Positions 7,746 through 22,497 of a DNA stretch of 64,000 nt are shown piece by piece. Source of the stretch: Mucilaginibacter geliditolerans (lineage in GTDB: Bacteria > Bacteroidota > Bacteroidia > Sphingobacteriales > Sphingobacteriaceae); assembly GCF_014200495.1 (NCBI RefSeq), contig NZ_JACHBY010000002.1, forward strand, positions 186,001-250,000, given 5' to 3'. The notes below the pieces were generated by a model, which ran no database searches, was not told the DNA's origin, and saw only the letters and a list, made by a program, of their open reading frames with translations. The position numbers and the translations under genes were made by a program. Within the stretch, counting starts at the first letter, position 1. Each line of letters begins with the position of its first letter.

Positions 7746-7761
7746 ACTATAACGATGGAGT
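7746..7761. promoter_or_regulatory. Putative LacI-type operator, kdgK operon
   Basis: The site ACTATAACGATGGAGT fits ACT-N2-AACGTT-N2-AGT with one mismatch in the core (A for T). It lies just upstream of the predicted kdgK promoter. The sequence from the core onward matches the uxaC site at 14935-14954 at 18 of 20 bases, which extends well beyond the palindrome. Confidence 0.65.
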
Positions 7762-7780
7762 AAATAATAACACCATAAAG

Positions 7781-7811
7781 TTTGAAAGGGTGATATTTCA
7801 ACATATTTTTG
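7781..7811 (+). promoter_or_regulatory. Bacteroidota-type promoter for kdgK
   Basis: TTTG at 7781-7784 and TATTTTTG at 7804-7811 are separated by exactly 19 bases. This matches the known Bacteroidota sigma-ABfr consensus TTTG-N19/21-TAnnTTTG. It would give a leader of about 50 bases before the kdgK ATG at 7867. Confidence 0.65.
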
Positions 7812-7866
7812 GAATTAACTTCGGATAAAAAACGATTCGTTAAATCCTGCTATCTGTAAGCTGCCA

Positions 7867-8910
7867 ATGAATAAACAATTTAATAAAAAAAAATACACGG
7901 GTTCTGTACTATGCTTTGGCGAACTGCTATTCAGGATAAGCCTTGATGCCGGTGGTAATTGGTTAAAAAATGATGCTGTCCCATTTTTTATGGGCGGCGC
8001 CGAACTGAATGTAGCCACGGCCCTATCCTTATGGGATGTACCCTCGCAATATTTTACTGCACTGCCTGATAATCATATGACGGCGCAGATCACGTCCCAT
8101 CTTAAAAGCAAGGATATCGATCCCTCAAAGATCTATCATCATGGCGACCGTGTTGGCTTATATATACTAACCAAGGGTGCCGATTTGAAAAATGATTCGC
8201 TGATCTATGATCGTGCACACTCAGCATTCGCCGAACTAAAACCGGGAATGATAGATTGGGATAAAGTATTGGATGGCGTAAGCTGGTTCCATTTCAGCGC
8301 TATATGCCCTGCCATCAATCAACATGTGGCCGATGTTTGTAATGAGGCATTAATAGCCGCATCTGCAAAAGGCATTACGATCTCTATTGATTTGAACTAT
8401 CGTTCAAAGCTATGGCAATATGGTAAAACACCCCTACAGATAATCCCTGAACTGGTGCAATATTGTGACCTGGTGATGGGTAATATATGGGCCGCTGAAA
8501 TCATGCTGAGTATCCCAGTTGAGGAAGGCTTGCATGCTGTTGGGCAAAAAGCCAAATATCTGGATGCCGCTTTACAAACATCAAAGCATATTACCGAAAA
8601 GCACCCAAAATGCAAAGCTGTTGCCAATACATTCAGGTTTGATAATAACGAAGGGATCACCTATTACACCTCCTTATATACAGGCGGCGAATATCACAGC
8701 ACTATTGACCACGCAGCCCTTAAAATAATAAACAAAGTAGGCAGCGGCGATTGCTTTATGGCGGGCCTCATTTATGGCTTTTATAATAGCCATGAACCAG
8801 CCGAAATATTGGAGTTCGCCACTTTAGCAGCTTTTGATAAGCTATTTATTGATGCCGATGCCACGTCTAAAACCGTAGAGGAAATTAAAACTACAACTAT
8901 TCCCAAATGA
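7867..8910 (+). CDS. kdgK: 2-dehydro-3-deoxygluconokinase (KDG kinase)
   Basis: This PfkB-family sugar kinase of 347 residues phosphorylates 2-keto-3-deoxygluconate (KDG) with ATP to give KDPG in the cytoplasm. The N-terminus reads VLCFGELLFRIS, as in KdgK proteins. The glycine-rich GGAELNVATALS block follows. The PfkB C-terminal signature is KVGSGDCFMAG, with the catalytic base Asp295. Length and layout fit the family. The stop overlaps the next gene, eda, by four bases (ATGA), so the two are translationally coupled. The gene is the first of a three-gene operon with a good promoter and a LacI-type operator upstream. It joins the UxaA product to the aldolase step. Confidence 0.93.
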   Translation: MNKQFNKKKYTGSVLCFGELLFRISLDAGGNWLKNDAVPFFMGGAELNVATALSLWDVPSQYFTALPDNHMTAQITSHLKSKDIDPSKIYHHGDRVGLYILTKGADLKNDSLIYDRAHSAFAELKPGMIDWDKVLDGVSWFHFSAICPAINQHVADVCNEALIAASAKGITISIDLNYRSKLWQYGKTPLQIIPELVQYCDLVMGNIWAAEIMLSIPVEEGLHAVGQKAKYLDAALQTSKHITEKHPKCKAVANTFRFDNNEGITYYTSLYTGGEYHSTIDHAALKIINKVGSGDCFMAGLIYGFYNSHEPAEILEFATLAAFDKLFIDADATSKTVEEIKTTTIPK

Positions 8911-9566
8911 GCAACCACGAAACCATACTTGCCGGCATTATAACTCAGGGCATTTTACCTTTGTTCTTTTATGAAGATGCGGAGGTGAGCCTGCAGGTTA
9001 CACGCACACTATACAAGGCCGGTGTTAGGGCTATTGAATATACAAACCGCGGCCCGGCCGCGCTTGAAAACTTTAAAGTGCTGAAAAAAGCACAACAGGA
9101 CGAAATGCCTGAACTGCACTTAGGTATAGGCACCATAAAATCGGAGCAGGAAGCCAGGGATTTTATAGCCGCGGGGGCTGATTTTATAGTAGCACCCATT
9201 GTGAACCCCGCCGTAGCAAAAATAGCCCATGAGCATGGCTTATTATGGTGCCCGGGATGTATGACACCTACCGAAATTTACACGGCACAGCAAAATGGCG
9301 CGGCGCTGATCAAGCTATTCCCTGCCAATATTTTGGGGCATTCATTTTTAAGTTCGATAAAGGAACTATTCCCAGGGCAATTATTTATGCCCACTGGTGG
9401 TGTTGAACTGCATATTGAGAACATTAGCAACTGGTTTAAGGCCGGGGTTTGCGCTGTAGGCTTGGGCAGCAAACTCATTACCAAGGATGTATTGACCAAA
9501 GGATTATACGACCAATTATATAACGATACTATTAAGGCGATGGAGCTTGTAAAAGCCGCCAAATAA
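8907..9566 (+). CDS. eda: KDPG/KHG aldolase (2-dehydro-3-deoxy-phosphogluconate aldolase)
   Basis: This 219-residue class I aldolase splits KDPG into pyruvate and glyceraldehyde 3-phosphate. Family motifs are visible: AIEYTNRGP, with the conserved Glu; GIGTIKS; CPGCMTPTEI; and the Schiff-base lysine Lys136 in ALIKLFPA. The glycine-rich PTGGVE loop for phosphate binding follows. The start codon overlaps the kdgK stop by four bases, and the MFS gene begins 18 bases after the stop. The context makes KDPG from hexuronate breakdown the likely substrate. Confidence 0.94.
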   Translation: MSNHETILAGIITQGILPLFFYEDAEVSLQVTRTLYKAGVRAIEYTNRGPAALENFKVLKKAQQDEMPELHLGIGTIKSEQEARDFIAAGADFIVAPIVNPAVAKIAHEHGLLWCPGCMTPTEIYTAQQNGAALIKLFPANILGHSFLSSIKELFPGQLFMPTGGVELHIENISNWFKAGVCAVGLGSKLITKDVLTKGLYDQLYNDTIKAMELVKAAK

Positions 9567-9584
9567 GTTAATATCTACCGAATT

Positions 9585-10931
9585 ATGACCAATGAAACCA
9601 AGGTTGGAAACTACAGATGGGTAATAGCATCTCTGCTCCTATTTTCTACCACCATAAATTATATGGACAGGCAGGTGATCAGCTATGTGAAGGATTATTT
9701 CTGCACACCCATAGCCAAAGGCGGTTTCGGCTGGACGGATAATCAATACTCTTACGTTACCGCGTGTTTTACTGCATTTTATGCAGGTATTACTGTAGTT
9801 GCAGGTTTGGTTATTGATAAAATAGGCACCAAAATGGGACTAGCGTTATCGCTTATTATATGGTCGACTTTTGGTATCCTGAATGCTTTTGCAGGTAGCT
9901 CAGTTGTAGTACATACCATTGTAAGGAGTTTATTTGGCATTGGTGAGGCAGGAAATTTTCCAGCATCAATAAAAACAGTTGCCGAATGGTTCCCTAAAAA
10001 GGAACGCGCACTGGCAACAGGCATTTTCAACAGCGGATCCAATATCGGCGCTATGATAGCGGCCCTATTTGTGCCCTGGTGCCTCATTCATTGGGGCGAA
10101 GCTACAGGCTGGAAAATGGCTTACATTATAACCGGCGCTGTTGGCTTTTTATGGCTGATATTTTGGTTCTTATTATATAATCCGCCTGCTAAATCCAAGT
10201 ATCTCACAAAAGAGGAATTTGATCTGATACATGAGGACGACCTGGTTGTATATGCGGCACCATCCGAAGATGTGGCCCTGCACGAAAATATATCATGGGG
10301 GAGATTATTCAGGTACCCGCAAACCTGGGCCTTTTTCTGGGGTAAATTTCTTACGGATGGCGTGTGGTGGTTCCTGTTATTCTGGCTCCCCGATTATTTA
10401 AAAAAGCAATTCGGTATGGATGTTCATCATATTATGTGGCCCACCTTTACCGTATACTTCATCTCTATCTTCGGCAGTACTTTCGGCGGCAACCTACCCC
10501 GCATGATGATCAATCGCGGCACACCTGTATACAAAGCGCGTATGCGTGCCATGTTTATTATTGCACTATTTCCTTTGTTCCTGCTATTAACACAATACTT
10601 TGGCAATAAAGCAGTATTTGGCGACTATGCATCGGTATTAGCTATCACGGTGATTTGTATAGGGGCAGCAGCTCACCAGGCATGGTCGGCAAATTTGTTT
10701 ACCACAGTGTCTGACATGTTCCCGAAAAAAGCCATTGGTTCAGTAACCGGTATAGGAGGAATGGCAGGGGGTATTGGTGGCGTGGTAATCCAACGTTTAT
10801 CGGGTATACTAAATACATCCTATCCTAAAGATGCTTATATGATCATGTTTACCATATGCGCGTTAGCGTATATAATAGCGTGGACTATCATCAGGCTGTT
10901 AACCTTAAAACCGTCGAAGATTGCAGTATAA
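9585..10931 (+). CDS. exuT: MFS hexuronate transporter (anion:cation symporter family)
   Basis: This 448-residue membrane protein has about twelve hydrophobic segments. Its first helix carries NYMDRQVISYV, the NYxDR signature of the ACS family, which includes ExuT and related hexuronate permeases. The segment VRSLFGIGEAGNFPASIKTV and the following EWFPKKERALATGIFNSG are also typical. It probably brings galacturonate or glucuronate across the inner membrane with a proton. It is the last gene of the kdgK-eda operon, so transport and the last catabolic steps are made together. Substrate is inferred from family and neighbours; the symbol is tentative. Confidence 0.87.
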   Translation: MTNETKVGNYRWVIASLLLFSTTINYMDRQVISYVKDYFCTPIAKGGFGWTDNQYSYVTACFTAFYAGITVVAGLVIDKIGTKMGLALSLIIWSTFGILNAFAGSSVVVHTIVRSLFGIGEAGNFPASIKTVAEWFPKKERALATGIFNSGSNIGAMIAALFVPWCLIHWGEATGWKMAYIITGAVGFLWLIFWFLLYNPPAKSKYLTKEEFDLIHEDDLVVYAAPSEDVALHENISWGRLFRYPQTWAFFWGKFLTDGVWWFLLFWLPDYLKKQFGMDVHHIMWPTFTVYFISIFGSTFGGNLPRMMINRGTPVYKARMRAMFIIALFPLFLLLTQYFGNKAVFGDYASVLAITVICIGAAAHQAWSANLFTTVSDMFPKKAIGSVTGIGGMAGGIGGVVIQRLSGILNTSYPKDAYMIMFTICALAYIIAWTIIRLLTLKPSKIAV

Positions 10932-10965
10932 TAGGCAATAATTAAATATGCTTATCAAGAGATAA

Positions 10966-11051
10966 TGTCATTTCGAACGAGGTACGAGGAGAAAACTTCT
11001 GCTGTAGACTCAGCACACGAAAAAGATTTCTCACTAACGTTCGAAATGACA
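10966..11051. repeat. Palindromic intergenic repeat (REP-like)
   Basis: TGTCATTTCGAACG at 10966-10979 is a perfect inverted match to CGTTCGAAATGACA at 11038-11051. A second inner pair (GAGAAA with TTTCTC) extends the stem imperfectly. From memory, similar TGTCATTTCGA-bounded palindromes recur between genes in Sphingobacteriaceae genomes. It lies in the convergent gap after the MFS gene. Confidence 0.65.
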
Positions 11052-11066
11052 ATGTTTCTTAATGTA

Positions 11067-11097
11067 TGCATTGTACGATTTTCAATCGTACAATGCA
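11067..11097. terminator. Bidirectional hairpin terminator between MFS and yhcH-like genes
   Basis: TGCATTGTACGATT and AATCGTACAATGCA form a perfect 14-bp stem with a three-base TTC loop. It lies between convergent stop codons (10931 and 11104). There is no long T-tract, but its position and perfection suggest a shared terminator. Confidence 0.65.
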
Positions 11098-11103
11098 TTA
11101 CGC

Positions 11104-11724
11104 TTATTCAGCATATTTAATCTTTATTACTAGCTTTTTATCCGAATCGTAACCATCAACCTTAATATTGGGTTTATGTACTTCGGATGGGAAGAATAAA
11201 TAAAACACGTTTGGCGTAGCTAAATAATATTTTCCATCCGCAGTATAATTTGCGCCATCTTTCTTCTCATCATAAGGAACAGTAACCGTGGCTGTTCCTA
11301 TCGGGCTCACCCCTATCGTTTCCTCGCCCTTAATCACATATTGCAGATCGATATATTTACGGTGCGATTCCCATTTGGCTACATCAGGTGTACGGGTAGG
11401 CATATCAGTAATGGATGCGTAGGCATTTTCTCCATCTATCGGATATTTGCCAGGTGCTAATTTTGCCAGTTTTGCGGTATCAGCCAAAAAGGCGAAGCAT
11501 TTATCCCACATAGTTTTATTGGCTTCGTACTGGCGTTTAAACTCAACGCTGTTTATATCAGGGTAAACTTTAATTTCAAGCTTTTTTGCCCATACTTTAC
11601 TTTTAACCCACTTATTCGCAGCCCTTACTTTACTTGCTGAATCTGTTTGTGCAAATGACGAATGACTTGCGAAAATTAACGCGATAAATGGTGCGATCTT
11701 TTTAATATCCGGGAAGATGTTCAT
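11104..11724 (-). CDS. YhcH/YjgK/YiaL family (DUF386) protein, secreted form
   Basis: This 206-residue protein belongs to the cupin-like DUF386 family. The block HRKYIDLQYVIKGEETIGVSP and the later YLFFPSEVHKPNI are the usual family core with likely metal-binding His and Glu residues. Members such as YhcH, YiaL and EbgC sit in sugar-acid or sialic acid operons and are thought to act on sugar anomers or isomers; no firm activity can be given here. Unlike the usual cytoplasmic form of about 150 residues, this one has a signal peptide (residues 1-25, ending FASHSSFAQ) and about 50 extra residues before the core. It is divergent from kduI and shares its control region, so a role with unsaturated or free uronates is plausible. 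Confidence 0.82.
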   Translation of the reverse strand: MNIFPDIKKIAPFIALIFASHSSFAQTDSASKVRAANKWVKSKVWAKKLEIKVYPDINSVEFKRQYEANKTMWDKCFAFLADTAKLAKLAPGKYPIDGENAYASITDMPTRTPDVAKWESHRKYIDLQYVIKGEETIGVSPIGTATVTVPYDEKKDGANYTADGKYYLATPNVFYLFFPSEVHKPNIKVDGYDSDKKLVIKIKYAE

Positions 11725-11809
11725 AGTTAATGATTTATCAATTGGTGATTTGAATTATCAATTATACAAGCTAACTCGTTAAAAGTGCTAAATTAAGCGC
11801 TGATTATTT

Positions 11810-11825
11810 ACTTTAACGTTTGAGT
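11810..11825. promoter_or_regulatory. Putative LacI-type operator between yhcH-like gene and kduI
   Basis: ACTTTAACGTTTGAGT is a full match to the palindrome ACT-N2-AACGTT-N2-AGT. The TTTG inside it (11819-11822) could also act as a -33 box, with TAACTTCC 19 bases further as a weak -7 box. A weaker site centred on AACGTT at 11862-11867 lies downstream, about 47 bases away. Both could control the divergent genes. Confidence 0.7.
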
Positions 11826-11909
11826 AGAAATATGGCTGCAATAACTTCCTTATTATATCATAACGTTGTAGACTTGTAATTGCAATTATATAATTTAAAT
11901 CATACACCC

Positions 11910-12740
11910 TTGAAAGTATTACATAGCGTACACCCGGATGATTTTAAAACCTATCAAACAGCTTTAATAAGAGAGCGTTTTTTGATAGACAAACAGGTTC
12001 AGCCTGATCAGATAAATTGTGCCTATACGCATTACGACAGGATGATCGTAGGCTTTGCTAATCCTGTAAATCATCAACTGGAACTACCTAATTACCCCAA
12101 CTTGCGTGCGGAGTATTTTTTAGAGCGCCGTGAGATCGGTATTATTAACGTTGCGGGCGATGGTATAGTTACTGTCGACAGTGTAAAGTACAACCTTAAA
12201 AAACTGGATTGCCTGTACATTGGCAAAGGCACAAAAAGAGTAACCTTTGAAAGTAAAGACGCCACGGCTCCAGCCGTGTTTTATATGCTCTCCGCTCCTG
12301 CACATGCGGTGTATCCAACCACATTATTAACTCATGCCGATGCGGTTAAGGTAACTTTAGGTTCAGCATTAACAGCAAACCATCGCACAATAAATAAATA
12401 CATCCATTTAGAGGGCATAAAAAGTTGCCAGCTGGTAATGGGCTTAACTATTTTACATGATGGCAGTGTATGGAACACTATGCCTTCGCACGTGCATGAC
12501 CGCCGTATGGAAGCTTATTTTTATTTCGATGTTCCCCAGGGTCAAAAGATCTTCCATTATATGGGCGAGGGAAATGAAACAAGGCATATCACCATGGATA
12601 ATTATGACGCAGTAGTATCGCCACCTTGGAGCATACATTCAGGCAGTGGCACGGCAAGCTACAGCTTTATATGGGGTATGGCCGGCGAGAACCTGGATTA
12701 TACTGACATGGATCCTATTGCTATAACTGATTTAAGATAA
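11910..12740 (+). CDS. kduI: 5-keto-4-deoxyuronate isomerase (4-deoxy-L-threo-5-hexosulose-uronate ketol-isomerase)
   Basis: KduI turns the unsaturated uronate product of pectin lyases and GH105 enzymes into 3-deoxy-D-glycero-2,5-hexodiulosonate. The cupin zinc site is clear in SHVHDRRMEAYFYF and PPWSIHSG. The frame is open from a TTG at 11880, but I place the start at the TTG at 11910 (MKVLHSVHPDD). That gives 276 residues, close to the E. coli length of 278. The metal ligands then fall at His194, His196, Glu201 and His243, each two less than the E. coli positions. No ATG start is available. It is followed after 25 bases by an SDR gene, and divergent from the yhcH-like gene. Confidence 0.93.
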   Translation: MKVLHSVHPDDFKTYQTALIRERFLIDKQVQPDQINCAYTHYDRMIVGFANPVNHQLELPNYPNLRAEYFLERREIGIINVAGDGIVTVDSVKYNLKKLDCLYIGKGTKRVTFESKDATAPAVFYMLSAPAHAVYPTTLLTHADAVKVTLGSALTANHRTINKYIHLEGIKSCQLVMGLTILHDGSVWNTMPSHVHDRRMEAYFYFDVPQGQKIFHYMGEGNETRHITMDNYDAVVSPPWSIHSGSGTASYSFIWGMAGENLDYTDMDPIAITDLR

Positions 12741-12765
12741 TCATCATAAAATTAAAACTAAGACA

Positions 12766-13581
12766 TTGGAAAATAAATTCTCATTAGCCGGTAAAGTAAT
12801 TGTTGTTACCGGCGGCACAGGCATATTAGGCAATTCATTTATCAACGGCATTGTTGAGGCTGGCGGCGCGGTGGGCATTTTAGGCAGGAACGCTGCTGTT
12901 GCCGAAGAACGTGCGGCAGCTATCAATCAAAACGGTGGCAAGGCAGTGGCTTTGGTTGCAGATGTTTTGGACGAAGCAGAGCTACAAACAGCCAAAACCA
13001 AACTGCTGGATACTTTCGGTCGTTTAGATGGATTGGTAAATGGCGCAGGCGGCAATATGCCCGAAGGTGTTTTGCAAAACGAGGATAACATTTTTAAAAT
13101 GAATATTGCCGGTATGAAGCGTACCATGGAGGTAAACACCTGGGGAACCATAATCCCCACACAGGTTTTTGGTGAAGCTATTGCACAAACCGGCAGCGGC
13201 AGTATTGTGAATATCTCTTCTATGAACTCAAAACGAGCCATAACCAAAGTATTGGGCTATAACATAGGCAAGGCGGCTGTTGATTGTTATAACCAATGGT
13301 TCGCGGTTGAACTGGCTAACCGTTATGGTGATGCTATCCGCATGAATGCCCTTGCTCCCGGCTTTTTTCTTACCGAACAGAACCGTAACCTGCTCACCAA
13401 ACCCGAAGGCGGCTACACCCCACGAGGTGAATTGGTTATAAAACAAACACCGTTCAAACGCTTTGGTCACCCAGATGAATTGATCGGCGCGCTGGTATGG
13501 TTGCTCAGTGATGCATCGCAATTTGTAACAGGTTCTATGATCTGTGTTGATGGCGGCTTTTCCATTTTTGGAGGAGTATAA
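12766..13581 (+). CDS. SDR-family oxidoreductase, D-mannonate oxidoreductase (YjmF)-like or KduD substitute
   Basis: This 271-residue short-chain dehydrogenase starts at a TTG 25 bases after kduI. It has the NAD(P) motif VTGGTGILG, the NGAGG segment, and catalytic Ser-Tyr-Lys in NISSMN and YNIGKAA. The segment NALAPGFFLTEQNRNLLT and the TP(F)KRFGHPDEL tail resemble the SDR-type mannonate oxidoreductase YjmF/UxuB of Bacillus better than classic KduD as I remember them. Two roles are possible: reduction of fructuronate to mannonate in the glucuronate branch, or reduction of the KduI product to KDG. The position directly behind kduI favours the second, the sequence favours the first. No other kduD and no mannonate dehydratase (uxuA) is in this window. 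Confidence 0.85.
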   Translation: MENKFSLAGKVIVVTGGTGILGNSFINGIVEAGGAVGILGRNAAVAEERAAAINQNGGKAVALVADVLDEAELQTAKTKLLDTFGRLDGLVNGAGGNMPEGVLQNEDNIFKMNIAGMKRTMEVNTWGTIIPTQVFGEAIAQTGSGSIVNISSMNSKRAITKVLGYNIGKAAVDCYNQWFAVELANRYGDAIRMNALAPGFFLTEQNRNLLTKPEGGYTPRGELVIKQTPFKRFGHPDELIGALVWLLSDASQFVTGSMICVDGGFSIFGGV

Positions 13582-13614
13582 ATAAAATATATTTTATCCC
13601 ATATATCTGTATTT

Positions 13615-13712
13615 CCCCGTTGTCTGTGTCCTCACAGACAACTACCTACATCATAACGCGACGAATAAACATCGCTTATCTCAGATGTCTGTGAGAACAC
13701 AGACAAGGGGGG
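13615..13712. repeat. Nested palindrome of two hairpins after the SDR gene
   Basis: TTGTCTGTG/CACAGACAA (13620-13641, loop TCCT) and TGTCTGTG/CACAGACA (13686-13705, loop AGAA) are two perfect hairpins. Their outer flanks are C-rich on the left (CCCC) and G-rich on the right (GGGGGG), so the whole 98 bases is also an imperfect inverted repeat. It may serve as a terminator for kduI-SDR, but it also looks like a dispersed REP-type element. Confidence 0.65.
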
Positions 13713-13846
13713 AATCACACACATCGGGGGAAGTTTTTCCATCTTCAGGAGAGTGTAACCCTGCTTTTACACACAGATTAACTTTATTTATCTTAAATTT
13801 CTTATGTTTACTTTTTGGGCTTAACCAATGGCCCGGTATTCATAAT

Positions 13847-13854
13847 TAATTTTG
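13847..13854 (+). promoter_or_regulatory. Possible -7 box for the lacI-type gene
   Basis: TAATTTTG matches TAnnTTTG and lies 15 bases before the ATG at 13870. No TTTG is found at the right distance upstream (the nearest, at 13813-13816, is 30 bases away), so support is weak. Confidence 0.3.
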
Positions 13855-13869
13855 TTTAAATAGGATAAG

Positions 13870-14913
13870 ATGAACTTTGGGGCAGTTACCATTAAAGATA
13901 TCGCGAAGGAATTAGGTATATCAGCTTCAGCAGTTTCAAAAGCGCTGAAAGACAGTCACGAGATCAGTGAAAAAACAAAAAAGCTGGTTTTAGAATGTGC
14001 CAAAAAACATAACTATCAACCTAACCCTATGGCCCAAAGCTTAAAGCGGGGCAATAGCAAATCGTTAGGCATAGTTATATCAACCATTGATAACCAGTTT
14101 TTTTCGCAGGTTATTAATGGGATTGAATCGGTCGCTTATAGTAAGGGTTATAATGTCATCATCACCCAAACACATGAATCGTACGACCTGGAACTATCAA
14201 ACGTTAATCACCTTACGGTTAGGGCAATTGATGGACTGTTGATATCCTTATCCACAGAAACAAGAAATCTTGATCACCTTAAATATTTACATGATAAGGG
14301 GCTGCCCATTGTATTTTTCGACCGTGTAACGGATGAGCTGGAAACGCACAGCGTTATTGCCGATAATTGCAAAGGCGCATATGATGCTACCAAACATTTA
14401 ATTGATGTTGGCTTCAGGAAAATTGCGCATGTTACCAGTTCGCCGCATGTATCAATTACTGCTGAGCGGTTAAAAGGTTATAAACTCGCTCTGGAAGAAT
14501 CCAATATCCCTATTGATGAAAAATATATAAAATACTGCCTGCATGGCGGCAGGGATCTGGCTGAAATTGAGAATGTACTGGCTGAGCTTATTCAATCCCC
14601 CGATCGCCCTGAAGCTATTTTTACAGCATCGGAAAGAATAACAACCACAACGCTAACTATCCTGCACAGATTAGGTGTTAAAATACCACAGGATATTGCC
14701 CTGCTTGGTTTTACCAACACCCATCTGGCCGAAGTGTTAAACCCGTCATTAAGCGCTGTTTACCAGCCGGGCTTTGATATGGGTAAAAAAGCTACCGAAA
14801 TGCTGATCGGACTTATTGAAACTAAGCGCCCTATTACCGAGTTTCAAAAGGTGGTGCTGCCTACCGAATTGTTTATCAGGGATTCATCACAACCTGTGCT
14901 TATTTCTAAATAA
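13870..14913 (+). CDS. LacI-family transcriptional regulator (uronate regulon candidate)
   Basis: This 347-residue protein has a LacI-type helix-turn-helix at about residues 7-56 (TIKDIAKELGISASAVSKAL), a hinge helix around NPMAQSLKRG, and a periplasmic-binding-protein-like effector domain (SKSLGIVIST onward, with IVFFDRV and LLGFTN). It should bind DNA as a dimer and respond to a sugar or sugar acid. It lies between kduI-SDR and uxaC. Four copies of a LacI-style palindrome with an AACGTT core lie in front of the surrounding uronate genes, making this protein their most likely regulator. No copy was seen in front of its own gene. The effector, perhaps galacturonate, KDG or a related acid, cannot be read from sequence. 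Confidence 0.93.
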   Translation: MNFGAVTIKDIAKELGISASAVSKALKDSHEISEKTKKLVLECAKKHNYQPNPMAQSLKRGNSKSLGIVISTIDNQFFSQVINGIESVAYSKGYNVIITQTHESYDLELSNVNHLTVRAIDGLLISLSTETRNLDHLKYLHDKGLPIVFFDRVTDELETHSVIADNCKGAYDATKHLIDVGFRKIAHVTSSPHVSITAERLKGYKLALEESNIPIDEKYIKYCLHGGRDLAEIENVLAELIQSPDRPEAIFTASERITTTTLTILHRLGVKIPQDIALLGFTNTHLAEVLNPSLSAVYQPGFDMGKKATEMLIGLIETKRPITEFQKVVLPTELFIRDSSQPVLISK

Positions 14914-14929
14914 ATTGAATATAATAGCT

Positions 14930-14945
14930 ACTGCAACGTTTGAGT
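14930..14945. promoter_or_regulatory. Putative LacI-type operator, uxaC
   Basis: ACTGCAACGTTTGAGT is a full match to ACT-N2-AACGTT-N2-AGT. It lies 80-95 bases before the uxaC start, and the run from 14935 to 14954 is 18/20 identical to the kdgK site. Confidence 0.7.
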
Positions 14946-14958
14946 AAATAATAATACG

Positions 14959-14997
14959 CCAAATGTTGCCTAAGGATAACAACTGTCCTACATTTGG
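14959..14997. repeat. Inverted repeat in the uxaC leader
   Basis: CCAAATGT at 14959-14966 pairs with ACATTTGG at 14990-14997, and inner AGGA pairs with TCCT, leaving a bulge on the left arm. It sits 27 bases before the uxaC ATG. It may be a second protein site, a leader hairpin, or chance. Confidence 0.35.
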
Positions 14998-15024
14998 TTT
15001 GCAGATAAACTGCCATACTCTATT

Positions 15025-16428
15025 ATGAAACCTTTTTTAGATAAAAATTTCTTATTGCAAAGCGCAACTGCGGAACGTTTATACCACGATTATGCCGCCG
15101 CATTGCCTATTATAGATTACCACTGTCACCTTGACCCTGCACAGATTGCAGGCAATATAAGCTTTACCAACCTTACCGAGATCTGGCTTAAAGGCGACCA
15201 TTATAAATGGCGTGCCATGCGTGCCAACGGTGTTAATGAGCAATATATAACCGGTGCTAAAACTGATTTTGAAAAATTTGAAAGCTGGGCCGCAACCGTA
15301 CCCTATACCCTGCGCAACCCTTTATATCACTGGACACATTTAGAGCTGCAGCGTTATTTCGATGTACATGACATTCTATCGCCAAAAACAGCAAAAGCTA
15401 TATATGATGATTGTACCGCAAAGCTGCAAACACCCGCATACACCGTGCAAAACATCATCACCAAAATGAATGTGGAGGTGATCTGTACAACAGATGATCC
15501 TATAGATAATCTTGAATATCATCAGCAAATAAAACAGGTCAACTGGAACACTAAGGTTTACCCGGCCTTCCGACCGGATAAGGCGATGAATGCAGATGAC
15601 CCGAAAGCGTTGAACGAATACATCAATAAAGTAGAAGCAGTAAGCAATACATCAATAGGCAGTTACCAGGATTACCTGACCGCGCTAAAAAAACGCCACG
15701 ATTACTTTGCTGAAAATGGCTGCACTGTATCCGACCACGGTTTAGAGCAGATTTATGCTGAAGATTATACAGAGGCAGAAATAGCTGCTATATTTAATAA
15801 GATCCGTTACAATGTGCCAGTACAGGCAATCGAGAAGCTGAAATTCAAATCAGCTATGCTGTATGAATTTGCCATATGGGATCATGAAAAAAACTGGGTG
15901 CAGCAATACCATTTAGGGGCATTACGAAACAATAACGAACGTGCTTACAGAGAGATCGGGCCTGATACCGGTTATGATTCTATAGGTGATTTTACACAGG
16001 CGCAAGCACTTTCACGCTTTTTGAACAGGCTGGATAGCACCAATCAATTAGCAAAAACCATCCTTTATAACCTTAACCCCAGCGACAACGAGCTTTTTGC
16101 AACTATGGCCGGTAATTATAACGATGGCACCGTTGCAGGCAAAATACAATTTGGTTCAGCATGGTGGTTTTTGGATCAAAAGGATGGCATGACCAAGCAG
16201 ATCAACTCCCTATCAAGCATGGGGCTGTTAAGTAAACTGGTGGGCATGTTAACCGATTCGCGCAGCTTTTTATCTTACCCGCGCCACGAGTATTTCAGGC
16301 GCTTATTGTGTAACCTGCTGGCCGAAGACATAGAAAAAGGCGAACTTCCTGCCGATTTGGAATGGACTGGTAAGATTGTACAGGACATCTGCTATTATAA
16401 CGCCAAAAACTACTTCACATTTAAGTGA
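15025..16428 (+). CDS. uxaC: Uronate isomerase (glucuronate/galacturonate isomerase)
   Basis: UxaC converts D-galacturonate to D-tagaturonate and D-glucuronate to D-fructuronate in the cytoplasm. The 467-residue length is usual. The metal site HxH of the amidohydrolase-like barrel is His33 and His35 in IIDYHCHLDP, and the conserved segments CTTDDP, YPAFRPDK and SDHGL are all present, as is the late LTDSRSFLSYPRHEYFRR. The gene stands alone between a LacI-type operator upstream and a hairpin downstream. It supplies tagaturonate to UxaB, whose gene is in the next operon. Confidence 0.97.
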   Translation: MKPFLDKNFLLQSATAERLYHDYAAALPIIDYHCHLDPAQIAGNISFTNLTEIWLKGDHYKWRAMRANGVNEQYITGAKTDFEKFESWAATVPYTLRNPLYHWTHLELQRYFDVHDILSPKTAKAIYDDCTAKLQTPAYTVQNIITKMNVEVICTTDDPIDNLEYHQQIKQVNWNTKVYPAFRPDKAMNADDPKALNEYINKVEAVSNTSIGSYQDYLTALKKRHDYFAENGCTVSDHGLEQIYAEDYTEAEIAAIFNKIRYNVPVQAIEKLKFKSAMLYEFAIWDHEKNWVQQYHLGALRNNNERAYREIGPDTGYDSIGDFTQAQALSRFLNRLDSTNQLAKTILYNLNPSDNELFATMAGNYNDGTVAGKIQFGSAWWFLDQKDGMTKQINSLSSMGLLSKLVGMLTDSRSFLSYPRHEYFRRLLCNLLAEDIEKGELPADLEWTGKIVQDICYYNAKNYFTFK

Positions 16429-16446
16429 TCCAACACTTCAAACACT

Positions 16447-16516
16447 CAACTAAAAATACTCCATAAAAACATTTCGTAACCAGTAATTTACGATAACGTT
16501 GGAGTGTTTTTAGTTG
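16447..16516. terminator. Long-arm hairpin after uxaC, overlapping next operon's operator
   Basis: The 17-base arm at 16447-16463 (starting CAACTAAAAATACTCCA) pairs with 16500-16516, with one G-T pair. The loop is 36 bases. The right arm ends in a T-rich run, consistent with a uxaC terminator. The operator at 16490-16505 overlaps the right arm. Confidence 0.5.
16490..16505. promoter_or_regulatory. Putative LacI-type operator, GH28-CE8-uxaBA operon
   Basis: ACGATAACGTTGGAGT fits ACT-N2-AACGTT-N2-AGT with one mismatch in the left outer triplet. A TAGATTTG -7-like box follows at 16549-16556, though with no good -33 box at the expected spacing. The site is 138 bases before the GH28 start. Confidence 0.6.
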
Positions 16517-16642
16517 CCCATATTCGCTTTTTATTGGTGCAGAGTATTTAGATTTGCTATAACAGTAAGTTTAACACTTATTTATAAACCAAACTTTTGA
16601 GGCAAACTATTATAGTATCCTGCCCCAAATAAAATATCGAAA

Positions 16643-18295
16643 ATGCCTGTTTTAAAAAGATTTGTTTTTATCTGCACTTTGTTGTTTTCAGCCGCGCAAA
16701 TAGCATCAGCTCAAAATGAGCAATTCTCGTGGCAGCATTTGCCGCAAGTGAGCACCCCTGTTTTTAAAAAGGATACGTTTAATATTATAAGTTATGGAGC
16801 CAAGGCAGATGGTATTACCCTTAATACACAAAGCATAAATAAAGCCATAGCTGATTGCAGCGCAAAAGGCGGTGGCGTAGTACTTATACCACAGGGTTTA
16901 TGGCTCACCGGGCCTGTAATGATGAAATCAAACGTAAACCTGCATGTAAGTCGTGCAGCTTTACTTCAGTTTACGGATGATAAAAGCCAGTACCCATTGG
17001 TTGAAGGCAATTATGAGGGGCATGCGGCTGTACGTAACCAATCCCCTATTTCAGGTACAGATCTGCAAAATATAGCTATTACCGGTGAAGGTATTATTGA
17101 TGGACACGGCGAAGCATGGCGCGCCATTGGTAAAGACAGGCTTACCGATAACGAATGGAAAGCGCTGACAGCATCAGGCGGCGTACTAAGCGAGAACGGC
17201 AAAACATGGTACCCATCCCAAAGTTATGTCGACGGGTTTAAAACACCTGATGCAGGTGTAATACAACCAGGTAAAAAACTGGGAGATTATGCTTCGATGA
17301 AAGATTTTTTCAGGCCTAATATGCTGGTGTTTACCAATTGTAAAAAAGTATTGCTGCAGGGCGTTACTTTCCAAAACTCCCCGGCATGGTGCCTGCATAC
17401 TTTGATATGCGAGGATTTGACACTGGAAAATGTACACGTTAAAAACCCATGGAATGCACAGAACGGCGATGGCATTGATGTGGAATCATGCAAAAATGTA
17501 TTGATCGAGGGTAGCACTTTTGAAGCTGGCGATGATGGTATTTGCATAAAATCAGGGCGCGACGAAGAGGGCCGACGAAGAGGAAAACCTACTGAAAATG
17601 TGGTGGTTAAAAACGATGTAGTCTACCGTGCGCATGGGGGCTTTGTTATAGGCAGCGAAATGTCGGGCGGGGCACGCAATATTTTTGTATCCGATTGTAC
17701 TTTTATTGGTACCGATGTTGGTCTGCGTTTTAAAACCACCCGCGGCCGTGGCGGTATTGTAGAGAATATCTACATTAAAAACATCAGCATGCGGAATATC
17801 GTTACCGATGCGATATTGTTTGATATGTATTATATGGGTAAATCGCCGGGTGAAGATTCGGCTGGTGATGAAAAGGCTGTTCCTGTTACCGAAGCAACCC
17901 CACAGTTCAGGAATTTTTATGTAGATAACGTGGTATGTATCGGTGCTGAAAAAGGTTTACAGGTAAGGGGGTTACCCGAAATGAATATCAAAAATATCTA
18001 TTTGCAAAATTTGGTATTAAAAACAAATCAAGGGATTGATATTATTGAAGGAACGGGTATCAGCCTTAAAAACGTTCAACTGGACTGCAAAAACACATCG
18101 CCGCTTATTAATATTGAGAATAGCCATGATATTAATTTTAATAATATCACTTACTCAAATGCACAAACACTGTTTGCTGTAAGCGGGAAAAGATCGGCAC
18201 AAATAAAAGTCTCTAATACTGATGTTACCAAAGCTGTTAATAAGACAGATTTTAAAACCGGCGCAGATAATGACTCACTAACAATAGTTAAGTAA
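16643..18295 (+). CDS. GH28 polygalacturonase, secreted
   Basis: This 550-residue right-handed beta-helix enzyme hydrolyses alpha-1,4 bonds between galacturonate units of homogalacturonan or rhamnogalacturonan. The signal peptide ends near residue 24 (ASAQ). Family motifs are present: NGDGID (Asp276 in the NTD position), GDDGICIKSG (Asp297 and Asp298), HGG (His331) and RFK (Arg362, Lys364). The catalytic acids are all there. The length and the N-terminal SYGAKADG segment resemble bacterial exo-acting members, so release of single galacturonate is possible but not proven. It is first in an operon: its stop codon shares a base with the start of the CE8 gene (TAATG). It is probably periplasmic. 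Confidence 0.95.
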   Translation: MPVLKRFVFICTLLFSAAQIASAQNEQFSWQHLPQVSTPVFKKDTFNIISYGAKADGITLNTQSINKAIADCSAKGGGVVLIPQGLWLTGPVMMKSNVNLHVSRAALLQFTDDKSQYPLVEGNYEGHAAVRNQSPISGTDLQNIAITGEGIIDGHGEAWRAIGKDRLTDNEWKALTASGGVLSENGKTWYPSQSYVDGFKTPDAGVIQPGKKLGDYASMKDFFRPNMLVFTNCKKVLLQGVTFQNSPAWCLHTLICEDLTLENVHVKNPWNAQNGDGIDVESCKNVLIEGSTFEAGDDGICIKSGRDEEGRRRGKPTENVVVKNDVVYRAHGGFVIGSEMSGGARNIFVSDCTFIGTDVGLRFKTTRGRGGIVENIYIKNISMRNIVTDAILFDMYYMGKSPGEDSAGDEKAVPVTEATPQFRNFYVDNVVCIGAEKGLQVRGLPEMNIKNIYLQNLVLKTNQGIDIIEGTGISLKNVQLDCKNTSPLINIENSHDINFNNITYSNAQTLFAVSGKRSAQIKVSNTDVTKAVNKTDFKTGADNDSLTIVK

Positions 18296-19290
18296 TGAAA
18301 AAGCTATTGCTGTTTACCCTAATCCTGTTTTCATCAGCTATGCTGATGGCGCAGTCTGCCACCTACCCTACGCATTTTACAGTGGCGCAGAATGGCAGCG
18401 GTGATTTTAAAACTATACAAGAGGCAGTAAACGCGGTACGTGATCTTTCACAACAACAGGTCATCATCAATATAAAACCCGGCACTTATCACGAAAAACT
18501 GGTGATTCCTTCATGGAAAACTAAAATCTCATTAATTGGCGAAGATAAAGCTCATACCATCATCACCAACAGCGATTACTCAGGCAAGGCAAACCCGGGT
18601 GGTACGGATGCTTTTGGCAAGAATAAATTTACTACATATACCTCCTACACCGTATTGGTACAGGGCAATGATTTCATCGCAGAAAACCTAACTATTGAAA
18701 ATGCCTCGGGCCGTGTTGGGCAGGCAGTGGCCTTGCATGTGGAAGGTGACAGATGCGTTGTAAAGAATTGCAATTTATTAGGGAATCAGGATACTTTATA
18801 CGCGGCTACTGAAAATAGCCGCCAGTATTATAAGGACTGCTTTATACAAGGAACAACAGATTTTATTTTTGGCGAGGCTACGGCGGTTTTTGATCATTGC
18901 GTGATCAAAAACCTGTCTGATTCCTATATCACAGCGCCATCCACTACCCCGCGGCAACAATTTGGCTTTGTATTTCTTGATTGTAAACTCATAGCCGATT
19001 CATATGTTAAAAAAGTGCACCTCGGTAGGCCTTGGCGACCTTATGCCAGGTCAGTATATATCCGCACTGAAATGGGAGCTCATATTATACCTGTCGGTTG
19101 GGATAACTGGCGCAACCCGGACAATGAAAAGACAGCCTACTTTGGTGAATACAAAAGTACCGGGTCGGGTGCCAATAAAACAGATCGTGCAGTGTGGTCG
19201 CATCAGTTAACATCCGAAGAAATAAAAATTTATACTATAAAAAATATACTTTCCGGCAAAGATGGCTGGAATGTGGAAGCGGTCAATTAA
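18295..19290 (+). CDS. CE8 pectin methylesterase, secreted
   Basis: Pectinesterase removes methyl groups from homogalacturonan so that polygalacturonase can act. The protein has 331 residues and a signal peptide (residues 1-20, ending LMAQ). It then shows the beta-helix family motifs: GSGDFKTIQEAV at the start, the catalytic Asp166 in GNQDTLYA and Asp189 in GTTDFIFG, and the substrate-binding Arg245 and Trp247 in LGRPWRPYA. All catalytic residues are intact. It overlaps the GH28 gene by one base, and the uxaB gene follows after 13 bases. Confidence 0.96.
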   Translation: MKKLLLFTLILFSSAMLMAQSATYPTHFTVAQNGSGDFKTIQEAVNAVRDLSQQQVIINIKPGTYHEKLVIPSWKTKISLIGEDKAHTIITNSDYSGKANPGGTDAFGKNKFTTYTSYTVLVQGNDFIAENLTIENASGRVGQAVALHVEGDRCVVKNCNLLGNQDTLYAATENSRQYYKDCFIQGTTDFIFGEATAVFDHCVIKNLSDSYITAPSTTPRQQFGFVFLDCKLIADSYVKKVHLGRPWRPYARSVYIRTEMGAHIIPVGWDNWRNPDNEKTAYFGEYKSTGSGANKTDRAVWSHQLTSEEIKIYTIKNILSGKDGWNVEAVN

Positions 19291-19303
19291 TAATTAAAGC
19301 ATC

Positions 19304-20800
19304 ATGATCTTATCAAAAGATAATTTAAAAAACATAGAGGTTCCAGGCTTACAAGTACCAAATGAGGATATCTTTAACCTGCCTGAAAAGGTTTTGCAAT
19401 TTGGTACAGGTGTATTATTAAGGGGCTTGCCCGATTATTTTATTGACAAAGCTAACCGTAACGGCGTTTTCAACGGTCGTGTTGTAGTTATTAAATCAAC
19501 CGACAAAGGTTCTTCTGCTGATTTTGACGATCAGGATAACCTGTACACCTTTTACGGCAAGGGAATTGAAGACTCAAAAGAAGTAAGCGAGCAAATAGTT
19601 TGCTCTGCTATCAGCAGGGTATTATCTGCCGCCAGCGATTGGGATGCAGTACTTGAAGTGGCCAAAAGCCCCGACTTACAGGTAATTATTTCCAATACCA
19701 CCGAAGTAGGTATCCAACTGGATAAAGATGATAATGTATATAACACCCCACCTGCATCATTTCCTGGCAAGCTGCTGGCTGTTCTGTACGAGCGTTATAA
19801 AGCCTATAGTGACAAAGCTGATAGCGGATTGATCATCATCCCAACAGAACTTATAGTAGACAATGCCACTAAATTAAAGGCTATTGTGTTTGAGCTTGCC
19901 CGTTTAAACAACATGGAGCCTGAGTTTATACAATGGTTGGAAGATCATAATAAATTTTGCAATTCACTGGTTGACAGAATTGTTCCGGGCAGGCCCTCTA
20001 AAGAACTGGAACAACAATTAGAAGCCGAACGTGGTTATACTGATAAATTAAATATCATGTCAGAAACCTATAGCTTATGGGCTATTGAGGGCGATCAGGA
20101 CGTGGCAGCAGTTCTATCATTTAGCAGAACTGATAAAGGTGTGGTCATAACGCCGGATATTGAATTATTCAGGGAATTAAAACTGCGTTTATTGAATGGT
20201 TCACATACATTAAGCTGCGCACTCGCATTCCTTTCAGGCTTTGATACTGTTAAGGAGGCGATGGATGATGAAGGCTTTTTAAACTTTATTACCCAGCTTG
20301 CTTTTGGCGAGATCATCCAATCCATACCTTACAAGATCAGTCCGCATGCTGCCGCCGATTTTGCAGGTAAGGTGCTCGACAGGTTCCGCAACCCGCACAT
20401 CAGGCATGAATGGTTAAGTATTTCTATGCAATATACCGCTAAACTTAAAATGCGTGTACTACCTTTACTATTAAACTATTATAAAACAAATAATACTGTA
20501 CCGCCCAATATGGCCCTTGGCTTTGCAGCTTTCATCAGGTTTATGAAAGTTGTACAAAAAGAAGATGGCAGCTATGCAGGCACAATAAATGACCGTGAGT
20601 ATATCGTTAATGATAGCCAGGCGCCTTATTTTTGTAAAGTTTGGCAAACAAACGATACCAATTTAGTAGTAGAACAAATCCTGAGTAATCAGGAACTTTG
20701 GAACACTGACCTTACTGCGTTACCCGGCTTTAAACAGGCCGTAACAAATAACCTGGATAAAATTATAGCAGGCGGAATAACAGAATTAACCGCCGTATAA
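19304..20800 (+). CDS. uxaB: Tagaturonate reductase (altronate oxidoreductase)
   Basis: UxaB reduces D-tagaturonate to D-altronate with NADH. The 498-residue protein belongs to the long-chain mannitol dehydrogenase family. Its Rossmann start is VLQFGTGVLLRG (residues 30-41), and the family segment LKLRLLNGSHTLSCALAFLSG lies in the C-terminal helical domain. The neighbouring uxaA gene starts 12 bases later, and UxaC is encoded just upstream, so altronate rather than mannonate is the likely product. The embedded SNTTEVGI segment is also characteristic of the UxaB/UxuB group. Confidence 0.94.
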   Translation: MILSKDNLKNIEVPGLQVPNEDIFNLPEKVLQFGTGVLLRGLPDYFIDKANRNGVFNGRVVVIKSTDKGSSADFDDQDNLYTFYGKGIEDSKEVSEQIVCSAISRVLSAASDWDAVLEVAKSPDLQVIISNTTEVGIQLDKDDNVYNTPPASFPGKLLAVLYERYKAYSDKADSGLIIIPTELIVDNATKLKAIVFELARLNNMEPEFIQWLEDHNKFCNSLVDRIVPGRPSKELEQQLEAERGYTDKLNIMSETYSLWAIEGDQDVAAVLSFSRTDKGVVITPDIELFRELKLRLLNGSHTLSCALAFLSGFDTVKEAMDDEGFLNFITQLAFGEIIQSIPYKISPHAAADFAGKVLDRFRNPHIRHEWLSISMQYTAKLKMRVLPLLLNYYKTNNTVPPNMALGFAAFIRFMKVVQKEDGSYAGTINDREYIVNDSQAPYFCKVWQTNDTNLVVEQILSNQELWNTDLTALPGFKQAVTNNLDKIIAGGITELTAV

Positions 20801-20812
20801 ATATATATAGCT

Positions 20813-22465
20813 ATGAAACAAAAAATAACAAAGGTACATCCAAAAGATAATGTAATGGTTGCCCTCACCGACCTGCAGGCTGGTGAAGGGGTTACTTACA
20901 AAGGCGAAACCTATAAACCCATTGAATATATACCTGCCAAGCACAAATTTGCAGTAACCGATCTGCCTGAAGGAACTGATATTATTATGTACGGTGTTTT
21001 GGTAGGTCGCACACAGAGCCATATACCGGTTGGTGGTTTGTTAACTATCACCAATATTAAACATGCTGCCAGTGGTTTTGTTACCGGTACAAATCATTTA
21101 GATTGGCAGGGCCCTGATACCACTAAATGGGAAAATGCCACATTCAATGGCTTCCACCGTGCTAACGGTGATGTGGGTACTGCCAACTATTGGCTGGTGA
21201 TACCAATGGTTTTTTGTGAGAATCGCAACATTGAGGTTTTACAGGAAGCTCTGATAAAACCATTGGGCTATGGTCGTAAAAAGACTTATGAAATAAAGGC
21301 GCAGCAGCTGATCAATAAAATACGCACAGGCAGCGGTATTGAAGAAGTATTATACACCGAAATTGGCAGCGACACTGCCCAAGCTGGACAGGACAAGCTA
21401 TTCCCGAATGTGGATGGTATTAAATTTTTAACACACACAGGTGGCTGCGGTGGCACACGCCAGGATTCAACCGCATTGTGTGGTTTACTGGCTGGATACA
21501 TCACCCACTCCAACGTGGCGGGAGCAACAGTTTTAAGTTTAGGTTGCCAGAATGCAGAGGTTAAAACCTTGCAGGAAGAAATTGCCAAACGCACACCTGA
21601 TTTTAATAAGCCTTTATACATTCTGGATCAACAAAAAGTAGGCTTAGAAACTGATTTAATGGAGCTGGCCATCCGCCAAACTTTGGCAGGATTGATCCAG
21701 GCTAATGAAGTTACCCGCAAACCTGCGCCTTTAAACAAACTGGTGATAGGCTTGGAATGCGGAGGTTCTGATGGTTTCTCGGGCATCTCGGCCAACCCGG
21801 CTATTGGTTATACTTCTGATCTGCTGGTGTCGCTTGGCGGTTCGGTTATACTATCTGAATTCCCTGAGCTGTGTGGTGTTGAGCAAAATTTGATTGACCG
21901 TTGTGTAGATAAAAGCAAGGCCGAGCGTTTTTCATCACTGGTACGTGCTTACAGCGCGCGTGCTGAGGAAGTAGGCTCTGGTTTTTATATGAACCCATCA
22001 CCCGGCAATATAAAGGACGGACTGATCACTGATGCTATAAAATCAGCAGGCGCAGCAAAAAAAGGCGGCACTTCCCCTGTTACCGATGTATTGGATTATC
22101 CTGAGAAAGTAACTAAACCCGGCCTTAACCTGCTTTGTACGCCCGGTAATGATGTGGAATCAACCACAGCTGAGGTTGGATCTGGTGCTAATGTGGTTTT
22201 ATTTACCACAGGTTTAGGAACGCCAACCGGCAACCCGATAACCCCTGTAATTAAGATCGCCACAAATACAAAGCTGTATAACCGCATGAGCGACATTATG
22301 GATATCAACACCGGAACAATTGTTGAGGGCGATGAAACCATTGAGCAGGCCGGTGAACGCATACTGGACTACATAGTTAAAGTTGCCAGTGGCGAAATTG
22401 AGGTAAGCGCTGTAAGGCATGGGCAAAATGATTTTATCCCCTGGAAAAGAGGAGTTTCATTGTAA
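20813..22465 (+). CDS. uxaA: Altronate dehydratase
   Basis: UxaA dehydrates D-altronate to 2-keto-3-deoxygluconate, the substrate of KdgK. The 550-residue protein has the small SAF domain at the N-terminus (HPKDNVMVALTDLQAGEGV), a linker, and the large catalytic domain with TGGCGGTRQD, LGCQNAE and LECGGSDGFSGISANPA. Conserved cysteines in these motifs probably bind the metal. It is somewhat longer than the E. coli enzyme (about 495 residues). It follows uxaB in the operon and lies before the GH105 gene by 32 bases. Confidence 0.95.
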   Translation: MKQKITKVHPKDNVMVALTDLQAGEGVTYKGETYKPIEYIPAKHKFAVTDLPEGTDIIMYGVLVGRTQSHIPVGGLLTITNIKHAASGFVTGTNHLDWQGPDTTKWENATFNGFHRANGDVGTANYWLVIPMVFCENRNIEVLQEALIKPLGYGRKKTYEIKAQQLINKIRTGSGIEEVLYTEIGSDTAQAGQDKLFPNVDGIKFLTHTGGCGGTRQDSTALCGLLAGYITHSNVAGATVLSLGCQNAEVKTLQEEIAKRTPDFNKPLYILDQQKVGLETDLMELAIRQTLAGLIQANEVTRKPAPLNKLVIGLECGGSDGFSGISANPAIGYTSDLLVSLGGSVILSEFPELCGVEQNLIDRCVDKSKAERFSSLVRAYSARAEEVGSGFYMNPSPGNIKDGLITDAIKSAGAAKKGGTSPVTDVLDYPEKVTKPGLNLLCTPGNDVESTTAEVGSGANVVLFTTGLGTPTGNPITPVIKIATNTKLYNRMSDIMDINTGTIVEGDETIEQAGERILDYIVKVASGEIEVSAVRHGQNDFIPWKRGVSL

Positions 22466-22497
22466 AATTAAGAGATCCATCATTCTATCACCCACCT

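Follow-up and report, generated by a model that had tools for sequence, protein, structure and literature searches.

Whether a palindrome that recurs ahead of uronate genes marks a single regulon, and how a regulator bound to it would act on the promoters, is the question raised by a 64,000-nucleotide stretch of Mucilaginibacter geliditolerans DNA (contig NZ_JACHBY010000002.1; hereafter the window, its 6.5-Mb genome being labelled G000), in which four copies of ACT-N2-AACGTT-N2-AGT surround a gene for a LacI-family protein. The sites, their conservation in relatives and their fixed spacing from promoter-like boxes can be read directly by sequence comparison. With moderate confidence, we favor the explanation that the LacI-family protein encoded at 13870-14913 binds these upstream palindromes, contacts RNA polymerase and most likely activates the uronate and pectin genes together with a gene for fructose-1,6-bisphosphatase (FBPase).

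A preliminary description of this DNA had placed the palindromes at 7746, 11810, 14930 and 16490, ahead of kdgK, yhcH/kduI, uxaC and an operon headed by a GH28 gene. All four positions were verified, the sites at 11810 and 14930 being perfect and those at 7746 and 16490 carrying one mismatch each, and re-reading confirmed that the kdgK and uxaC copies share 18 of 20 bases counted from the core onward; the gene names, that of the LacI gene included, agree with the gene identification made here. Each site is an even palindrome with a central CG. Taken alone, the raw count in the window is modest, with six matches at up to two mismatches compared with 2.06 +/- 1.32 in shuffled sequence (six or more in 2 of 100 shuffles), and in the whole genome the bare pattern at up to one mismatch is not enriched, its 12 places falling below the 27 of a reversed control pattern. 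Matches strewn at random over the genome had been named beforehand as a sign against a regulon, and the bare pattern is indeed weak at the genome scale; yet four of the 12 matches are packed within 8.8 kb, each preceding a uronate operon, and are conserved, while the remaining eight comprise five inside open reading frames (ORFs) and three in intergenic positions. The genomic count would suit an origin of the palindromes by chance or as a promoter feature unconnected with a LacI regulator, a view that we nevertheless regard as very improbable, since conservation in relatives and a fixed promoter distance place the four sites beyond chance.

Conservation was assessed by applying the window pattern, unchanged, to eight other Mucilaginibacter genomes that carry a LacI protein of the same subclade. 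At up to one mismatch the pattern precedes 18 of 21 operon-first uronate genes and none of the 39 regions that belong to other genes of the loci (a single one at two mismatches), the operon-first list having been chosen after the earlier locus results were seen, and the site-less kduI region of E4BP6, 37 bp behind a transporter gene, having been placed among the 39 after its lack of a site was known. Furthermore, the kdgK region of G008, where the ORF caller had begun upstream of the site, was set by hand, and the near-conspecific locus L137 was excluded. The same test gave a mean of 0.065 and a maximum of 8 for 400 permuted palindromes, and a mean of 0.03 and a maximum of 1 for shuffled regions, which speaks strongly against chance matches. 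The three misses are the uxaC genes of G013, G017 and G020, all located outside the LacI cluster. In the aligned upstream regions, 10 (kdgK), 11 (kduI), 12 (uxaC) and 11 (GH28) of the 12 specified columns are invariant, as against 24-39% of the flanking columns. Six loci with SAVS-type LacI genes (L140-L142, L144, L145 and L151) have no adjoining uronate genes and lie outside the comparison. Moreover, the LacI gene lies 250 kb from kduI in G013 and on a different contig in G017, and kduI has two perfect sites in each; such retention of sites at a distance from the LacI gene argues for action in trans and is a further point against chance. The related-genome scan proposed in the preliminary description, carried out here with the pattern, thus found the sites preceding uronate genes and accompanying the LacI orthologue even when the LacI gene lies elsewhere.

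Promoters of Bacteroidota carry a -7 box, TAnnTTTG, which the part of a Flavobacterium study available to us puts at -12 to -5 (PMC9723704). In all 28 oriented sites of the LacI subclade (kdgK 5, kduI 8, uxaC 5, GH28 4 and FBPase 6, with G041 included, and with only the nearer of the two kduI sites of G013 and G017 counted, as the farther one faces yhcH), the start of a predicted -7 box and the operator centre are 50 bp apart in 5 cases and 51 bp apart in 23, compared with a mean of 0.26 and a maximum of 2 in spacing shuffles. The box is an exact TAnnTTTG in the 20 non-kduI sites and has one mismatch in all eight kduI sites. The distance from the operator centre to the start codon in the window varies between 87 and 145 bp, so it is the promoter, not the gene, that sets the place of the operator. 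In the yhcH-kduI spacer of G013 and G017, two operators stand 50 bp apart and each has its own -7 box at 51 bp, as though this distance were a requirement. A composite of half operator and -7 box has seven matches in the 6.5-Mb genome, of which six are regulon promoters, compared with 3 for the control, and 58 over nine genomes compared with 30; scanning the window with this composite gave no match ahead of the LacI gene that would point to autoregulation. With the -7 box at -12, the operator centre would lie at -62.5 or -63.5. At the 28 sites the operator ends about 19 bp before the predicted -33 position, without the overlap expected of a classical occluding repressor and in the upstream arrangement of a class-I-type activator. 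A first reading of the alignments, with the operator over the -33 box, was dropped when better -7 boxes were found further down.

The preliminary description saw a local uronate regulon of four units, and one palindrome does precede all four; the purely local extent does not hold, as yhcH and an FBPase gene belong as well. The operator at 11810 also faces yhcH, with a -7 box 51 bp away in the opposite direction. A class I FBPase gene, located in G000 26 kb beyond the window, bears the operator 151-164 bp before its start in 6 of 6 cluster genomes (G000, its near-conspecific G041, G008, G009, G042 and G043, in which the contig holding the cluster ends after uxaC), representing about three lineages. 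A first set of FBPase genes (27 loci in 21 of 25 genomes) has the operator at three only, in G000, G008 and G009, and a second (27 loci, 14 genomes) in three cluster genomes, contig ends truncating a few loci of these sets; among the FBPase paralogues in the cluster genomes, seven have no operator. An ACG-type or one-mismatch site is present at FBPase in G047, G016 and G048, accompanied in G047 by a -7 box at 51 bp. When uronates enter as pyruvate and glyceraldehyde phosphate, gluconeogenesis requires the FBPase step. At locus L111, the operator-bearing FBPase gene lies between a convergent pectate-lyase-like gene and a divergent alcohol-dehydrogenase-like gene, both named by eye.

In G000, a perfect ACT-type palindrome is also found 38 bp upstream of pfkA (contig C4, 150194-150209, or 1501-1516 of locus L003), a position that would fit with phosphofructokinase being repressed whenever FBPase is expressed. 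It may also be a chance match: among the pfkA loci retrieved, the palindrome precedes pfkA in G000 only, the 29 others having none, and seven further pfkA matches, one of them a second G000 copy, lying outside those 29. Among the nine loci examined that have palindromes away from uronate genes, only one has a -7 box at 51 bp; there (L072 position 1501, in G021) the operator and box face an alginate-lyase-like gene, named by eye, which is a possible further member of the regulon. At position 1501 of L065 and L071, in two relatives, the perfect palindrome TTACTTAAACGTTTAAGTAA precedes a gene that by eye resembles myo-inositol-1-phosphate synthase; no -7 box was found at 51 bp, so another regulator probably acts there.

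A tree of 61 LacI proteins separates a clade with the recognition helix STSTVSRAL from a clade with SxSTVSKAL and SxSAVSKAL helices (split support 100/99), and the window protein groups in the latter, here named the KdgR-like uronate clade. The outer bases ACT/AGT appear typical of its subclade, the relatives having mostly ACG/CGT: in kduI-type regions, to which this comparison is limited, the 20 half-sites that go with SxSAVSKAL have T (19) or G (1) as their third base and the 36 that go with SxSTVSKAL have G (28) or T (8), two of 13 STVSK loci having no site. The Fisher value of 9.6e-8 is nominal, as half-sites are not independent and the tree holds few changes. Outside the kduI-type regions the correlation is blurred, as the SxSAVSKAL group has one ACG half in 6 of 6 FBPase sites and 2 of 4 GH28 sites; the Thr-to-Ala change in the helix thus appears to accompany the operator change from ACG to ACT as a correlation.

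The STSTVSRAL clade goes with a 28-bp double palindrome (TTTAYGCAAWCGTTCCCGRNAACG..., centres 12 bp apart) located beside SusC-sized, GH28 or LacI genes; present at L057-L062 and many of L160-L216, it marks this second uronate LacI clade. The fixed distance extends to these proteins. In two related LacI clades, a box lies at 49-52 bp in 36 of 80 oriented candidates (shuffle mean 0.85), many of which are expected to act on a single side, and at 49-53 bp in 42 of 49 double operators that face SusC-sized or pectinase genes (shuffle mean 0.56), compared with 7 of 48 in the opposite direction, which mostly leads to LacI. After clustering at 70% identity, the three groups still comprise 17, 25 and 32 distinct promoters. 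In all three, with the two other clades restricted to sites having a box, the AT fraction is 0.91 in the 8-bp block after the operator and before the -33 box, versus 0.56-0.57 in the next 12 bp. The fixed-distance -7 boxes of double-palindrome promoters have A (25) or C (17) at position 5, never T. Overlapping LacI sites about 13 bp apart are described in the part of a survey of LacI regulators available to us (PMC4052901).

From these observations, we infer that a dimer of the protein encoded at 13870-14913 would bind each 16-bp palindrome, the centre of the bound operator lying 50-51 bp upstream of the -7 box of a real promoter and about -63 from the transcription start, with the AT-rich block of 8 bp separating it from the -33 box. 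At this position the dimer would touch RNA polymerase, most likely activating transcription. The targets would be the kdgK-kdgA-transporter operon, kduI and yhcH through one operator, uxaC, the GH28 pectinase-uxaBA operon and FBPase, and the trigger would be a uronate-derived inducer, perhaps 2-keto-3-deoxygluconate (KDG). The protein has the domains of the LacI/GalR family (PF00356 and PF13377, both above cut-off), and the structures nearest to it by sequence include CcpA and PurR. An occluding repressor needs overlap with the promoter, not a constant distance, whereas class-I activators such as CRP show an unvarying distance near -60 together with an AT-rich block for the alpha subunit of the polymerase. 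Within the LacI family, GalR (at -60.5) sets a precedent for polymerase contact with either outcome. The fixed distance near -60, in place of overlap, makes polymerase contact likelier than blocking, so we consider contact likely and activation more likely than repression.

Several points weigh against this explanation. The LacI family is known chiefly for repressors, and GalR, bound at -60.5, exerts repression through polymerase contact; the geometry thus leaves the sign of regulation unfixed. A perfect TAnnTTTG, unneeded by an activated promoter, is present in four of six promoter types, and the G000 pfkA site, an exception to the upstream placement, is downstream of the promoter-like box TATTTTTG, a position suited to repression. 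FBPase genes found in G013, G017, G020 and flavus have no site despite a LacI protein of the same subclade. Besides, the genomes are not independent, the LacI tree showing close pairs (G000/G041, G009/E4BP6, G008/LS_FP and G013/G017), and the ACG-type composite is not enriched class-wide, with 10 matches in 9 of 119 genomes compared with 12 control matches. Finally, a LacI paralogue with 62% identity and the helix SSSAVSKAL is encoded in the same genome.

The first of these points would agree with the same LacI protein being a repressor relieved by uronate, which from its upstream site holds the polymerase by contact, as GalR does, or together with a second protein. This is possible, although we consider it rather unlikely. 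The known habit of LacI-family members to repress sugar genes and the perfect -7 boxes favor it, and the part of the survey available to us counts 1173 even palindromes centred on CG, as here, among 1303 predicted LacI motifs (PMC4052901). However, blocking would not call for a constant distance, and the predicted -33 and -7 boxes are free of the operator in every regulon promoter examined; moreover, one operator serves two divergent promoters at equal distance, and paired operators each keep their own 51 bp. The paralogue, in turn, raises the alternative that another protein binds the sites, for example this paralogue itself (G000:C2:595825), whose helix is one residue off the local SASAVSKAL, the local LacI having other targets. 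We regard this as quite improbable: in G008, where the local LacI is present (80%) and the only other match at threshold is one of 38%, all four local sites are kept, and the LacI subclade and the operator bases shift together. The earlier claim that the LacI protein controls all four units is borne out as to the joint conservation of sites and regulator, whereas the identity of the binder is the less direct part of it, given a paralogue with a nearly identical helix.

At the pectinase operon, the distribution of regulators suggests a replacement. Of 17 genomes searched, 9 have the STSTVSRAL regulator (74-100% identity), and a double operator of its type in G020 faces the same set of GH28, pectinesterase, GH88, uxaB and uxaA genes. 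In the cluster genomes the GH28 operon bears the 16-bp site instead of the double operator, and in these six genomes no STSTVSRAL regulator was found (best match at most 54%; G009 is only 58% complete). G044 and G049 likewise have none, and there is no such merged cluster at their LacI locus. Because of this distribution, the simplest reading is that the KdgR-like LacI would have gained control of the pectinase operon, replacing a second LacI type absent from the cluster genomes.

The features of the locus are collected in Table 1. The start of kduI was taken as the TTG at 11910 because the start of the longer ORF, at 11880, is only 4 bp past the predicted -7 box. The SDR oxidoreductase downstream of kduI possibly has the role of KduD. 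A metagenome-assembled genome named M. xinganensis encodes a LacI protein identical to that of the window, with six other genes of that locus 92-97% identical. Two intergenic inverted repeats resembling miniature inverted-repeat transposable elements or repetitive extragenic palindromes, at 13611-13715 and 10954-11063, have arms of 33 nt (88% complementary) and 26 nt (85%), respectively, and the former lies in the spacer between the SDR and LacI genes. Divergent from kdgK, a hybrid two-component regulator (3302-7429) combines Reg_prop, Y_Y_Y, histidine kinase, response regulator and AraC-type helix-turn-helix domains, and may co-control pectin genes. No Rfam family reached its threshold in the window between 7400 and 17000.

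Table 1. Operators, predicted promoter boxes and genes of the uronate cluster (window coordinates, except for the last row)
Feature	Position	Strand	Remarks
Operator of kdgK-kdgA-MFS operon, ACTATAACGATGGAGT	7746..7761	+	Pattern match, orthologous regions, -7 box spacing
kdgK -33 box TTTG (predicted)	7781..7784	+	19 bp ahead of -7 box
kdgK -7 box TATTTTTG (predicted)	7804..7811	+	50 bp from operator centre
kdgK-like PfkB sugar kinase (PfkB-type KDG kinase)	7867..8910	+	
KDPG/KHG aldolase (kdgA/eda)	8907..9566	+	
MFS transporter	9585..10931	+	Nearest model D-galactonate transporter, below that model's cut-off
YhcH/YjgK/YiaL family protein (yhcH)	11104..11724	-	
yhcH -7 box TATAATTG (predicted)	11759..11766	-	51 bp from operator centre, opposite direction to kduI
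Operator common to kduI and yhcH, ACTTTAACGTTTGAGT	11810..11825	unstranded	Pattern match, boxes both sides
kduI -7 box TAGACTTG (predicted)	11869..11876	+	51 bp from operator centre; one mismatch to TAnnTTTG
kduI	11910..12740	+	Start taken as TTG 11910
SDR oxidoreductase	12766..13581	+	D-mannonate oxidoreductase model NF006132 above cut-off
LacI-family regulator	13870..14913	+	Recognition helix SASAVSKAL
Operator of uxaC, ACTGCAACGTTTGAGT	14930..14945	+	Pattern match, orthologous regions, -7 box spacing
uxaC -33 box GTTG (predicted)	14965..14968	+	20 bp ahead of -7 box
uxaC -7 box TACATTTG (predicted)	14989..14996	+	51 bp from operator centre
uxaC, glucuronate/galacturonate isomerase	15025..16428	+	
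Operator of GH28 operon, ACGATAACGTTGGAGT	16490..16505	+	Pattern match, orthologous regions, -7 box spacing
GH28 -7 box TAGATTTG (predicted)	16549..16556	+	51 bp from operator centre
GH28 polygalacturonase-like gene	16643..18295	+	Heads GH28-pectinesterase-uxaB-uxaA-GH88-DUF5703
Rest of presumed operon: pectinesterase, mannitol-dehydrogenase family (UxaB-like), altronate dehydratase (UxaA), GH88, DUF5703	18295..26706	+	
Genes flanking the operator-bearing FBPase gene	2-1423 and 3053-4045		Coordinates of locus L111

Taken together, these results allow a broader proposal, which we advance tentatively and at somewhat less than even odds: uronate LacI proteins of Sphingobacteriaceae and Chitinophagaceae would be rigid-position activators acting 49-53 bp before the -7 box, and in one Mucilaginibacter LacI helix and operator would have changed together, the pectinase operon would have been taken from a lost second LacI and an FBPase paralogue recruited, such that pectin breakdown would switch on its own gluconeogenesis. 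LacI proteins are textbook repressors, and a constant distance over many unrelated targets would, if true, mean a group of LacI activators. It would also give a simple rule for reading uronate and pectin regulons in soil Bacteroidota, namely an operator with a -7 box 49-53 bp away. In addition, the FBPase link suggests that a catabolic regulon can bring its own gluconeogenic step, and the joint change of helix and operator would be a natural case of a regulator and its sites shifting together.

A literature search, with subscription journals largely outside it, found neither a Mucilaginibacter uronate regulon nor a fixed-distance LacI activator in Bacteroidota. CRP in class-I activation (-61.5) and GalR (-60.5) are dimers rigidly placed near -60 that contact RNA polymerase; in the present case, the geometry comes from sequence alone and concerns Bacteroidota promoters with a TAnnTTTG box. 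The LacI-family regulators KdgR, UxaR and UxuR have been predicted in Bacteroides (PMC3878776), which makes a uronate LacI regulon in Bacteroidota a known kind of system. As far as the available part of that account goes, KdgR and UxaR resemble the present regulator in family, phylum, control of glucuronate/galacturonate and KDG genes and prediction by comparative analysis; they differ in belonging to another lineage, the likeness to BT0487 and BT0824 being one of description, and the same part mentions neither a fixed promoter distance nor FBPase in the regulon (PMC3878776). AraQ and MalR1 of Bifidobacterium are likewise LacI-type regulators of central carbon flux, although in Actinobacteria and for another pathway, according to the accessible portion of their description (PMC6882875). 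Within the part of the LacI survey available, Cra/FruR of E. coli and PckR of Rhizobiales are dual regulators of the LacI family that activate gluconeogenic and repress glycolytic genes (PMC4052901). Those are global regulators, whereas here a uronate regulon is joined by one FBPase paralogue and, in one genome, a pfkA site; the likeness lies in the FBPase site being upstream and the G000 pfkA site downstream of a promoter-like box.

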